NCBI RefSeq assembly: GCF_000526155.1
Contig: NZ_JAFN01000001.1
Span: 3,536,264 to 3,600,263, forward strand
DNA length: 64,000 nt
Source of the DNA: Deferrisoma camini S3R1
GTDB lineage: Bacteria; Desulfobacterota; Deferrisomatia; Deferrisomatales; Deferrisomataceae
Reading direction: 5' to 3'
Shown: piece after piece, positions 35,392-59,321 of the stretch
How positions within the stretch are numbered: position 1 is the first letter of the stretch
Layout of the letters: every line of letters begins with the position of its first letter
The notes under the pieces: model-generated
Told to the model about the DNA's origin: nothing
Database searches by the model: none
Seen by the model: only the letters and a program-made list of their open reading frames with translations
Program-made: the position numbers and the translations under genes

Positions 35392-36501
35392 GTGAAGGGG
35401 GCGTTTCTTTCGCTTTGGGTGTTCGTCTTCGTCTGGTTGGGGGGGATGGCCGGCGCCGCGGTGCTGGACCCGGCCCTGTACGTGGGCAGCGAGCGGTGCC
35501 GAGGGTGCCATCCCGAGAAGTACCAGGGGTGGAGCAAGACGTTCCACGCCACGGTGGTGCAGGACGCCAAGAAGAACCCGGAGGCGGTGCTCGGCGACTT
35601 CTCCGTGCCGAACCTGGGGTTCACGCTCGAGGACGTGGAGTTCACCATCGGCGGGCACTGGCAGCAGCGGTACATGAAGAAGATCGGCGACGACTACTAC
35701 GTGTTGCCCAAGCTGTGGAGCGTGCAGTCCCAGAAGTGGCAGGCGTACAACGTGTGGTCGTGGCGGAAGATGCCGTACGGGAAGTACTGCAAGGGGTGCC
35801 ACGTGACCGGGTTCGATCCGGCCCGGGGGAAGGCGGTGGAGCCCCGGATCGGATGCGAGGCGTGCCACGGCCCCGGCCGGGCCCACGCCGAGGCCGAGGG
35901 GGCCGGGCCGATCGTGAACCCGAAGAAGCTCTCGGACGAGCGGCGGGACATGATCTGTGCGGCCTGCCACGTGCGGGGGACCGACCCGTCCAAGACGTAC
36001 TACTTCCCGGTGGGCTTCATGCCCGGGGACGATCTGGGCGAGCACTACGTGCCCAACGGCAAGGAGCCCGAGGAGACGAACACCCAGGCGGTCCTACGGA
36101 TGTTCGCCAAATGGAAGAAGAAGCGCGAGGAAGGCGCCCAGCTCAAGTGCGACGTGTGCGGGATTCCCGGCGTGGCCGAGGAGCGGGACCAGGAGAAGGT
36201 GGACTCGATGCTGGAGTTCTGCTTCGGGTGCCACGGGTTCAAGAACAAGTACGCCGAGCACACGCGCCACCCCGCGAGCGTCGGGTTGATGTGCTTCGAC
36301 TGCCACGTGCAGCAGACGAAGGAGATCATGAACCCGGGCACCCAGGACATCCACTCGTACGGCTACTTCCTCGTGCACAAGGAGAAGTGCTACGACCCGC
36401 AGATCGAGAAGGCCTGCGTCAAGTGCCACGCCGACAAGGGGCCCGAGTGGGCCCGTCGCACGGTGGAGTCGTGGGGCAAGCCGGTGGAGCTGGACCACTA
36501 G
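35392..36501 (+). CDS. Heptahaem cytochrome c (cytochrome c554-like)
   Basis: 369 residues, signal peptide 1-22. CxxCH at 36, 133, 155, 189, 277, 301 and 342. An eighth site is degenerate: CDVCG at 253-257. The spacing CKGCH..CEACHGPG..CAACH is that of the cytochrome c554/hydroxylamine oxidoreductase-type fold used for electron transfer or nitrogen/sulfur oxyanion reduction. The GTG start has AGGAGGT 6 bases upstream. Follows the DsbC-like gene by 25 bases and probably shares its transcript. Confidence 0.88.
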   Translation: MKGAFLSLWVFVFVWLGGMAGAAVLDPALYVGSERCRGCHPEKYQGWSKTFHATVVQDAKKNPEAVLGDFSVPNLGFTLEDVEFTIGGHWQQRYMKKIGDDYYVLPKLWSVQSQKWQAYNVWSWRKMPYGKYCKGCHVTGFDPARGKAVEPRIGCEACHGPGRAHAEAEGAGPIVNPKKLSDERRDMICAACHVRGTDPSKTYYFPVGFMPGDDLGEHYVPNGKEPEETNTQAVLRMFAKWKKKREEGAQLKCDVCGIPGVAEERDQEKVDSMLEFCFGCHGFKNKYAEHTRHPASVGLMCFDCHVQQTKEIMNPGTQDIHSYGYFLVHKEKCYDPQIEKACVKCHADKGPEWARRTVESWGKPVELDH

Positions 36502-55339: not shown

Positions 55340-57238
55340 ATGCGGAAACGAGTGCTCATCGTGGACGACGATCCGGGCACCCGGGAGCTCCTGATCGAGA
55401 TGGTGGCCGATCTCGAAGGGGTCGAGGTGGACACGGTGACCGCTTCCACGGACGAGGAGGGATACCAGCGGTTCCTGGAGGTGGGGCCGGACCTGGTGCT
55501 CCTGGACCTCCTGCTTCCGCGCAAAGGAGGCATGGCGCTCCTCCGCCGCATCCGGGAGCTGCGCGGCGGGCGGGAGGCGGCGGTCATCGTGATGAGTGCG
55601 GTGTTCCGGGAAGGGGACGCGCGCACGGAGGCCGTGGGGGAGCTGGGTGCTTTGGATTTCTTCCGGAAGCCGTTCCATCTGCCCACGGTGAGGACCCGGT
55701 TGCGGCAGGTGCTGATTCCGCCGGAAGGGCAGACCCAGGTGGAACCCCTGTTCGGCGGCGCAAAGGCGCCGGCCCGGGACGGGAGCCTGGCGGCGGTGGA
55801 GTTGCCGGTGGTCCTGCGCAACCTCGGCCGGGCGGACCGGACGGTGTGCCTCGACCTGAGGGCGGGCCGCGTCCGGAAGACTCTGTTCTTCCGGGACGGC
55901 AGGGTGGTGTTCGCGTTGTCGAACCGCCTGACCGACACCCTGAGCCGATTCCTCCTGGCCGAAGGGGTGATCGACGAGGACACCTACCGGGACGGCCTGG
56001 TGGCCATGAAGGAGCAGGGGCGCCGGATGGGGGAGTACCTGGTGGCGGAGGGCGTGCTGCACCCCGACGCGCTCCACAGCGCCCTCCGGCAGAACCTGTG
56101 GCAGAAATGCCTCGACGTGTTTTCGTGGACAGAAGGGGAGTTCCGGATCGGCCCGTTCCGGCCTCCACCCGCCGAGATCCCGGGCCCGCCGTTCGAGGTG
56201 GATCGTCTGGTGTGGGAGGGGGTCCTGGAGGTGTACCCCTTCGATCGGATCACGGCCGCCCTGGCCCCCTACGAAACCCTGCCCATGGGGCTGCGGGGAG
56301 ACCTGTTCGACCTGGCCGCCCGGGTCAGCCTGGAGCGCGACCACCTGCAGTTCCTCCACCTGGTGCGCCGCCGCAGCGGGGAGACCCTTGGGCGGATCCT
56401 TGCGGACGCCCAGGGGGAGAACGAGGTCCGGATCCTGTACTATCTGCTCGTCTACGGCTACCTGGGAGTGGCGGAGGCCGGGGGAGGGGGGCTGGACCTG
56501 ACCGAGTTCGAACGGGTCCGGCGGGCCCGGAAGGAGCTCGATGCCCTGCGGCGGCGAAACTACTTCCAGGTGTTGGGGGTGGGGATCACCGACAACGACG
56601 AGGCGGTTCGGCGGGCCTACCTGCAAAAGGCCAAGGACTACCACCCCGACGTGCTGTCGCCGGGGGAGCCCCAGGCCCTGCGGGGAATCTACGGCGAGAT
56701 CTTCCGGCTGATCCAGACCGCGTACGACGCCATCAAGACCGAGGCCCGGCGGGAGGAGTACCTGCGATTCCTGCAGGGGGGGGAGGCCGAGGCCAAGGAC
56801 GCATCCGACATCCTCGCCGCCGAGGGCCGGTTCCAGGAGGGGCGCCTCCTCCTGCGTCGCAGGCAGTGGGACGAGGCGGCCCGGGCCTTCGAGGAAGCCC
56901 TATCCGTGAACCCGGACGAGGGGGAGTACGTGCTTCATCTCGGGCTCGCCCGGCTGCGCCAGGCCGTGTCGGGCCGGGAGGGAGCCCTGGCCGAGGCGAA
57001 GGACCTGTTCCGCCGGGCCGCCGAGTTGCTGCCCGGGGCGCCGGAGCCGTGGTTTCGGCTGGGCCGCCTGGCGGCCCTGGAGGGGAGACAGGACGAGGCG
57101 CGCCGGTGCTTCCAGGAGACCCTGCGGCGGGATCCCCGCCACACCGACGCCCTGCGGGAGCTCCGACGGATGGACCAGGCGGCGGAGAAACGTCGGGGGA
57201 AAGGACTCGTGAACCTGTTCCGGAGGAACTCGAAATGA
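55340..57238 (+). CDS. REC-DUF4388-J-domain-TPR fusion protein
   Basis: 632 residues. Receiver domain 1-125 (VLIVDDDPG, VLLDLLLPRKGG, FFRKPFHLPT). DUF4388/PatA-type domain about 145-330 (LPVVLRNLGRADRTVCLDLRAG, LFFRDGRVVFALSNRLTD). J domain about 405-475 (YFQVLGV, AKDYHPDVLSPGE with the HPD motif). TPR repeats about 490-600. J domains call DnaK; together this suggests a signalling adaptor coupling phosphorylation to a chaperone or polarity function. Its stop overlaps the start of the selenoprotein-like gene (ATGA). Confidence 0.88.
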   Translation: MRKRVLIVDDDPGTRELLIEMVADLEGVEVDTVTASTDEEGYQRFLEVGPDLVLLDLLLPRKGGMALLRRIRELRGGREAAVIVMSAVFREGDARTEAVGELGALDFFRKPFHLPTVRTRLRQVLIPPEGQTQVEPLFGGAKAPARDGSLAAVELPVVLRNLGRADRTVCLDLRAGRVRKTLFFRDGRVVFALSNRLTDTLSRFLLAEGVIDEDTYRDGLVAMKEQGRRMGEYLVAEGVLHPDALHSALRQNLWQKCLDVFSWTEGEFRIGPFRPPPAEIPGPPFEVDRLVWEGVLEVYPFDRITAALAPYETLPMGLRGDLFDLAARVSLERDHLQFLHLVRRRSGETLGRILADAQGENEVRILYYLLVYGYLGVAEAGGGGLDLTEFERVRRARKELDALRRRNYFQVLGVGITDNDEAVRRAYLQKAKDYHPDVLSPGEPQALRGIYGEIFRLIQTAYDAIKTEARREEYLRFLQGGEAEAKDASDILAAEGRFQEGRLLLRRRQWDEAARAFEEALSVNPDEGEYVLHLGLARLRQAVSGREGALAEAKDLFRRAAELLPGAPEPWFRLGRLAALEGRQDEARRCFQETLRRDPRHTDALRELRRMDQAAEKRRGKGLVNLFRRNSK

Positions 57239-58722
57239 AGCAGCAGGCTCGGGCCGCGATGCGGTGGGTGTGGGGGGCGGCGGTGGTGTGCCTCGTCGGG
57301 GGGGGGATGGGAGGCGCCGCGGCCGCGGCCGGGCCCCGGCTGGGGCTCGCCTACACGGCCGGGGTGCGTGGCGAGATCGAACCCTGCGGGTGAAAGAGCG
57401 GCCGGTTCGGGGGTCTGGCCCGAAGAGCCGCCAAGATCAAGGACCTGCGGGAAACGCTGGATCTGCTGTACCTGGACGGGGGGGACGCCCTGTTCCGGAC
57501 CTTCCCGGTGCCCGACGGGCAGGCCGGTCGCCCGCTGCGGGAGCGGGCGGCCCTGATCGCGCGGGTGATGGTGTACGCCGGGGTGGCCGCCGCGAACGTC
57601 GGCCGCCTCGATCTGGCCGCGGGCCTCGGATTTCTGGAGGCCCTGGCCGCCGGCGAAGGGGTGCCCTGGATTGCGGCGAACCTGGAGACCCGGGACGGCC
57701 GGCGGCCGTTCCCTGCCTGGCGGAAGGTCCGCTGGGGGGGGCTGCGGGTGGGGGTGGTGGGGGTGACCCGGCCCGAGCCCGAACAGGACCGGCGACTGGG
57801 CATCCGGGTGGCCGATCCGGTCGAGACCCTGGCCAGGGTGCTTCCGGAGATCTGGGCCCAGGACGTGGACGCGGTGGTGCTCCTGTCGAACCTGGGGCTC
57901 GAACGGGAGAAGGAGCTGGCCCGGCGGTTCCCCCGGATCCGGCTGATCGTGGGGGGCGGGACCTATCCGTATCTGCCCGAGCCGCCGGTGGTGGGGGGCA
58001 CGGTGATCCTCCACGCCGGCGACCGGGGCCGGTTCCTGGGTGTGCTGGAGACCGATGCCGCGAGCCTGCGGGAGCGGTCCGCCCCGGTGAACCGCGGTCA
58101 AGAGGGGGTGTGGAAGGCGCGGCTGGCCTCGGCCGAGGCCCGGCTCCGCAAGGCTCCCCCCGACACGGCCCGGGCCGTGCTCAACGCGTGGAACCGCCAG
58201 GCCGCGGCCGCCCGGGCCACCCTGGAGCGCATCCGCACCTCGAAGGTCTGGTTCACCCACCGGATCGTGCCGCTCTCGCCCGACGTGGCCGAGATCCCGG
58301 AGGTGGCCTCCTGGGTGCGGCGGGTGACGGGCCGCCCCCAGCCGCCGACTGGCACCCGCCCGCGCCGAGTGCCGGCCACGCACACCGGCTCGGCCGGGTG
58401 CCGGGGGTGTCACCCCAAGGTGTACCGATGGTGGGTGTCCACCCGCCACGCCCGGGCCTACACCCCCCTCAGGGGAAAGAGGCCCGACCCCCGGTGTCTG
58501 GGGTGCCACGCCACCCGCGTGGTGCGGGGCACGGGGGCATCCACCGAACCCGCCGTGGGGTGCGAGGCGTGCCACGGCCCGGGTGCGAAGCACCGGGGGG
58601 CCGGGAACATCGTGGGGGTGCCGCCACCTGCGACCTGCCGGCGCTGCCACCGCGGGTACCACCCGAACGAGGCCTTCGACGAGAAGGCGGCGAGGGCGAA
58701 AATCCGCTGCCCAAAAGGCTAG
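57235..58722 (+). CDS. Candidate selenoprotein: 5'-nucleotidase-like tetrahaem cytochrome with in-frame UGA
   Basis: 495 residues if UGA at 57391-57393 is read as selenocysteine (position 53). Signal peptide 1-36, then AYTAGVRGEIEPCG-U-KSGRFGGLARRA. Homologues as I recall them have CGC at this spot, so U replaces a conserved Cys. A degenerate 5'-nucleotidase/metallophosphatase domain follows (LYLDGGDALF, VGVVGVTRPEP, VVLLSNLGL, LIVGGGTY), then a helical linker and a c554-like tetrahaem tail with CxxCH at 389, 421, 443 and 468. The frame downstream of the UGA stays intact for 442 codons. Exported; probably membrane-side electron transfer. Read conventionally it would be a 52-residue peptide. 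Confidence 0.82.
57391..57431 (+). promoter_or_regulatory. Bacterial SECIS-like stem-loop behind the in-frame UGA
   Basis: After UGA (57391-57393): lower stem GCGGC (57398-57402) with GCCGC (57427-57431), internal loop CGG/GA, upper stem TTCGGG (57406-57411) with CCCGAA (57419-57424), and a 7-base loop GGTCTGG. GGTCT starts 18 bases after the UGA, the same distance as GGUCU in the E. coli fdhF SECIS. It would bind SelB and direct selenocysteine insertion. Confidence 0.75.
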
Positions 58723-58793: not shown

Positions 58794-59321
58794 TCACCCC
58801 CCGGCTTTCGTCGGAGGGGAGGCCGCCACGATCCGCTCGACGATGCCGGTGGTGGACTTGCCCGGCACGAACGGGATGGTGACCACGCGGCCGCCGTGGG
58901 ATTCCACCACGTCCCGGCCCACGATCCGGTCGGGGGCCCAGTCCCCCCCCTTCACGAGCACGTCCGGCCGCACGGCCTCGATCAGGCGCAGCGGGGTGTC
59001 CTCGTCGAACACCGTGACGAAGTCCACGCTCTCCAGAGCGGCGAGCACCGTGGCCCGTTCGTCCTGGGTGCAGATCGGGCGGCGGGGTCCTTTGAGCCTG
59101 CGCACGCTCTCGTCGCTGTTCAGCCCCACCACCAGACAGTCCCCCAGGGCCCGGGCCGCCTCCAGGTACCGGACGTGGCCGGGGTGCAGGATGTCGAAGC
59201 AGCCGTTGGTGAACACCACGGTGTGACCTGCCCGTCGGCGGTTCGACAGTTCGACCAGCAGCCGGGCGACGGGGACGATCTTGCGGTCGATGGCGGAAGG
59301 GGAACGGGCGGGGGCGCTCAT
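58794..59321 (-). CDS. rfaE2: D-glycero-beta-D-manno-heptose 1-phosphate adenylyltransferase
   Basis: 175 residues, nucleotidyltransferase only. [23 protein letters not shown] carries the HxGH motif (HPGH), DVLVKGGDW and the C-terminal [15 protein letters not shown] loop complete the site. Makes ADP-heptose for the lipopolysaccharide core; the kinase half (RfaE1) is not here. The 71-base gap to the previous gene is short-word GGCTAGAAGG repeat. Confidence 0.92.

Follow-up and report, generated by a model that had tools for sequence, protein, structure and literature searches.

A new member of the UshA-like (CxU) selenoprotein family with four haem sites in Deferrisoma camini S3R1

A forward-strand gene in the window (the whole stretch of 64,000 nucleotides of Deferrisoma camini S3R1 DNA that was analysed) adds a well-supported new member to a known selenoprotein family, UshA-like (CxU). 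Its single in-frame UGA, codon 53, is almost certainly decoded as selenocysteine (Sec) by SelB and tRNA-Sec, directed by a SECIS-like element with a GGUCU loop 18 nt downstream. The explanation that best accounts for the whole, and that we consider probable, is an exported Sec protein in which an ancestral metal site has been lost and Cys51 and Sec53 carry out redox chemistry wired to the haems. The features of the gene and its product are as follows.

57235–58722, + strand: UshA-like (CxU) selenoprotein gene with four haem sites; 495 codons, one UGA read as recoded
57235–57327, + strand: probable Sec-type signal peptide, residues 1–31, recognized by eye (hydrophobic helix, then AAAAA)
57334–58338, + strand: 5'-nucleotidase/SoxB-type metallophosphoesterase domain, residues 34–368, with the two-metal ligand set missing
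57385–57393, + strand: Cys51-Gly52-Sec53, placed by homologue alignment, with the UGA at 57391–57393
58399–58413, + strand: haem site 1, CRGCH (residues 389–393)
58495–58509, + strand: haem site 2, CLGCH (residues 421–425)
58561–58575, + strand: haem site 3, CEACH (residues 443–447)
58636–58650, + strand: haem site 4, CRRCH (residues 468–472)

UGA codon 53 and the SECIS-like element

Translation of 57235–58722 gives 495 residues followed by a stop, and the sole internal TGA lies at codon 53, in EPCG-U-KSGRFGGLARRA. The first-pass annotation had read this codon as Sec and had proposed a search for the Sec machinery; the source genome (one 4.24-Mb contig) encodes selA, selB, selD and a tRNA-Sec (selC) with anticodon tca. 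The selD gene carries an in-frame TGA of its own, in TCGUAAK, and SelD (L055, G000:C1:2674710-2675627) is thus likely a selenoprotein itself.

Of the 112 homologues that cover the site, 55 have U at position 53 and 57 have C, with no other residue, and Cys51 is kept in 109. The 80 named loci were gathered through the haem motif and not through the PCG-U/C motif, yet all 112 sequences have U or C at position 53, which supports the Sec reading; the 57 Cys homologues likewise agree with the proposal that Sec stands in for the Cys of a CGC motif. When related genomes were searched with the NF041198 model, matches were found in 37 of 59, and most of the N-terminal matches contained one TGA.

The putative recoding signal comprises the following elements, the stems being placed from the predicted fold.

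57391–57435, + strand: SECIS-like element, conserved in UGA genes only
57398–57402 with 57427–57431, + strand: SECIS lower stem
57406–57411 with 57419–57424, + strand: SECIS upper stem, loop GGUCUGG
57412–57416, + strand: GGUCU apical-loop motif, exactly 18 nt after the UGA

The predicted fold of the 45 bases that start at the TGA is a stem-loop in two parts with GGUCUGG exposed (−19.4 kcal/mol), so that a stem-loop with conserved G/U in its apical loop comes right after the UGA. The folding energy is weak evidence because the DNA is 70% G+C and shuffled sequences fold comparably: 16 of 200 shuffles of the 45-base stretch folded equally well (z −1.5), the 60-base stretch from the TGA folded no better than its shuffles (z about 0) and mean folding energies did not differ between UGA genes and Cys genes. 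Folding energy was dropped as SECIS evidence on these grounds, and an Rfam search at the UGA returned no credible RNA family.

Comparison of UGA genes with Cys genes is real evidence against chance and points to RNA-level selection that is confined to the UGA genes. GGTCT at +18 is found in 48 of 55 UGA genes and in 0 of 57 Cys genes (Fisher p 1.6e-24, relatedness ignored); Gly60, the second Gly of GGL, is encoded by GGT in 50 of 55 UGA genes and in 6 of 57 Cys genes, against a GGT background of 15% and 19%, respectively, and of 4.9% in six window genes. The p values obtained for these codon and motif comparisons, 1.8e-35 and 1.6e-24, ignore relatedness. If bases are counted from the T of the TGA, numbers 19–20 pair with 30–29 in 44 of the 45 distinct UGA genes. 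The 18-base spacing is identical in E. coli fdhF (there were matches in 5,368 E. coli genomes, those listed being annotated fdhF), and the fdhF-like SECIS described in the first-pass annotation thereby holds up.

In a list of open reading frames compiled without regard to Sec, the first part of the gene stops at the UGA and a new frame opens at 57508, as would be expected if the UGA truly ended the protein, or were a sequencing error, and what follows it were a remnant. That reading is very hard to sustain: 55 homologues share a TGA at the same site, 48 of them with GGTCT at +18, conserved sequence flanks codon 53 on either side and the genome holds the complete Sec machinery. The first-pass annotation had marked sequencing error as a point for checking, and the presence of TGA at the same site in dozens of other genomes rules it out. 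Gene callers that are blind to Sec will split or truncate the gene.

Family placement and gene neighbourhood

In 2008, Zhang & Gladyshev described UshA-like selenoproteins with a COG0737 domain and a CxU motif (PMC2398784), and these were relisted in reviews of 2022 and 2026 (PMC9312934, PMC13188914), the latter of which also names other multihaem selenoprotein families, ExtKL and the tetrathionate reductase family octaheme cytochrome. The window protein shows each hallmark of the published family: a COG0737/5'-nucleotidase-type domain, CxU with an in-frame UGA and Cys homologues. It matches NCBIfam NF041198, 'UshA-like (seleno)protein' (UshA_like_PCGU), over essentially its full length (E 4e-78, profile positions 17–512 of 519), with 263.2 bits (253.5 bits when searched on the genome) against a cut-off of 275; since its score falls below that cut-off, it is filed under the wider published family instead of the strict equivalog. 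Four haem sites are also present in L018, the relative with the highest score (560 bits), and the haem part is therefore a property of the known family, even if the family name gives no hint of it. The suggestion that a Sec haem protein of this type was undescribed therefore fails on two counts, the CxU family having been known since 2008 and NF041198 already spanning the whole protein, four haem sites included. Among the papers searched, none dealt with the biochemistry of UshA-like proteins.

In the tree, the window protein belongs to a well-supported clade of nine Deferrisomatales proteins with the motif PCGUKSG(R/K)(F/L)GG, which score around or under the NF041198 cut-off; one, L020, lies above it at 280.3 bits. 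The genome holds a second UshA-like copy (L003, G000:C1:2019024-2020304; PCGUKKNPRGG), which at 317.7 bits exceeds the cut-off and falls in a separate PCGU(K/Q)KNPRGG clade. Two genes flank the window copy.

55340–57238, + strand: upstream gene (response regulator, DUF4388, DnaJ, TPR); its stop overlaps the selenoprotein start (ATGA)
58794–59282, − strand: convergent cytidylyltransferase-like gene (RfaE2 type); the same neighbour occurs in 8 clade members

A homologue of the upstream gene precedes the selenoprotein in four other members of the order (L138, L139, L140, L142), and the ATGA-type overlap is repeated in at least three of these. The neighbours of the window copy (the response regulator/DnaJ/TPR protein, RfaE2 and a LysM protein) give no pointer to electron transfer; clustering of neighbours found only regulatory or apparently housekeeping genes around the window clade and, in no group, a neighbour that names a substrate. 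The paralogous clade adjoins a 16-haem protein with a NapC/NrfH-like domain, often together with a cytochrome-b561-like multihaem protein, and the second copy of this genome, L003, adjoins a divergent 16-haem NapC/NrfH-like gene (L146:5508-7739).

Several Cys homologues have distinctive settings of their own. Those of Planctomycetes and Verrucomicrobia (L118, L084, L086, L088, L095, L097, L101 and others) lie in a conserved cluster with genes for DUF4159, thioredoxin-HEAT and SIMPL proteins and for two large proteins that match no Pfam family (in L118, of 465 and 929 aa). In anammox Planctomycetes (L072:3799-4842 and relatives), the Cys homologue directly follows a DUF1573 protein, whose match to the OS_HP2 (seleno)protein model lies just below the cut-off and which is a possible functional partner. 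The Cys homologue L104 (BNCN01000001.1, 'Comamonas sp. KCTC 72670') nests inside Myxococcus sequences (end branch 0.09), so this record may be mislabelled or contaminated.

Lost metal site, haem domain and proposed chemistry

The predicted AlphaFold model (mean pLDDT 82.5) is of low confidence precisely at residues 52–55 and across the haem domain. Residues 2–25 form a helix in this model, and the hydrophobic N-terminus, judged by eye, suggests that the protein is exported. The domain match and the four CXXCH motifs agree with the first-pass description of a 5'-nucleotidase-like protein that carries four haem sites; its export, also part of that description, is predicted. Structure comparison of the N-terminal domain gave Z 31.5 to the 5'-nucleotidase 2z1a and Z 29.9 to SoxB.

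The ligand set of the two catalytic metals was assessed as DxH, GD, GNHE, SH and GGHxH. In the window protein aligned to 2z1a, D84 alone is kept, and the set required of a 5'-nucleotidase or metallophosphoesterase enzyme is absent; across the 112 homologues, the Asn ligand is found in 0, the neighbouring His of GNHE in 0 and the first His in 5. Cys-Gly-Sec occupies the loop in which the first pair of ligands used to lie. Because the ligands for both catalytic metals are lost, the N-terminal domain is very probably no phosphohydrolase.

The four CXXCH motifs and two extra His residues (405 and 453) are invariant in a 20-row alignment, and haem is predicted to be attached at all four motifs. The haem domain is missing from several Sec relatives, so the haems are not required by every relative. 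Elsewhere in the window (35473–35991), another multihaem cytochrome frame (413 aa) is similar to the haem part of NF041198.

We propose that the phosphoesterase fold was repurposed; its two-metal site is dismantled across the family, a loss that makes redox chemistry at Cys51-Gly-Sec53, wired to the haems, the probable function. Cys51 and Sec53 would act in the periplasm through a selenenylsulfide or a substrate-bound selenium intermediate, and electrons would move singly through the four c-type haems. A quinol-linked NapC/NrfH-like multihaem protein may feed the family's periplasmic reductase; quinol-driven reduction is suggested because the 16-haem NapC/NrfH-like protein adjoins the paralogous clade, not the window copy, and from that neighbour we lean, by a little, towards a quinol-fed periplasmic reductase. 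The most general form of the proposal, in which throughout the family a metallophosphoesterase fold stripped of its two catalytic metals serves as a periplasmic selenoenzyme wired to four haems and as a quinol-fed terminal reductase, is put forward tentatively, as a conjecture somewhat short of even odds.

Two other functions would fit a genuine selenoprotein. Cys51 and Sec53 might hold a soft metal ion or metalloid, whether for storage, for sensing or as a catalytic site, and the position of the Cys-Gly-Sec loop beside the lost DxH ligands, together with the retention of one Asp ligand in about half of the relatives, would suit such a role; of the candidate ligands there, however, only Cys51 and Sec53 are near-invariant and the rest vary, and the haem domain suggests electron transfer. 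In the 2008 survey, moreover, most selenoprotein families were homologues of thiol oxidoreductases, though the UshA-like family was set apart (PMC2398784). We regard metal binding as unlikely.

Less likely still is that the domain keeps a hydrolase function resembling that of SoxB and acts on a sulfur or selenium group borne by a partner protein, with Sec or Cys as the nucleophile and the haems taking up electrons. Among curated families SoxB ranks next, with matches to all 20 aligned members (best E 1.8e-36), and its structures match the N-terminal domain at Z 29.9; the score of the window protein, 56 bits, is far below the TIGR04486 cut-off of 550, the two-metal ligands are gone and no SoxYZ-like protein was found among the recurrent neighbours that were identified, some neighbour clusters being unclassified. 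Redox chemistry at Cys51/Sec53 is thus the reading that we prefer, and the loss of the two-metal site, the strict Sec-or-Cys position and the haem domain together make a testable case that 'UshA-like' proteins are redox enzymes, not nucleotidases.

Comparison with known systems

The closest known system is the NF041198 family itself, whose PCGU motif, 5'-nucleotidase-type domain, four-haem C-terminal part and conserved SECIS motif are all found in the window copy. UshA-like family 2 (NF049981, a model of 262 positions) has a related N-terminal motif region (E 1e-10), but its spacing is given as CxxU (PMC13188914), whereas the window protein has CxU and scores 41 bits against a cut-off of 140. 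ExtKL (NF040886) is also a multihaem c-type cytochrome with Sec, but it is a different family, matched weakly and in the haem part only (E 0.06). The Thermus 5'-nucleotidase (PDB 2z1a) and UshA have the same N-terminal fold; unlike them, the window protein lacks the metal ligands and the His of GNHE, and in place of the 5'-nucleotidase C-terminal domain it has a cytochrome c554/c7-like haem domain. The SoxB thiosulfohydrolase (TIGR04486; PDB 2wdc, 4uwq) likewise has the N-terminal fold in common with the window protein, which differs from it in lacking the two-metal ligands and in having Cys-Gly-Sec and a fused haem domain.
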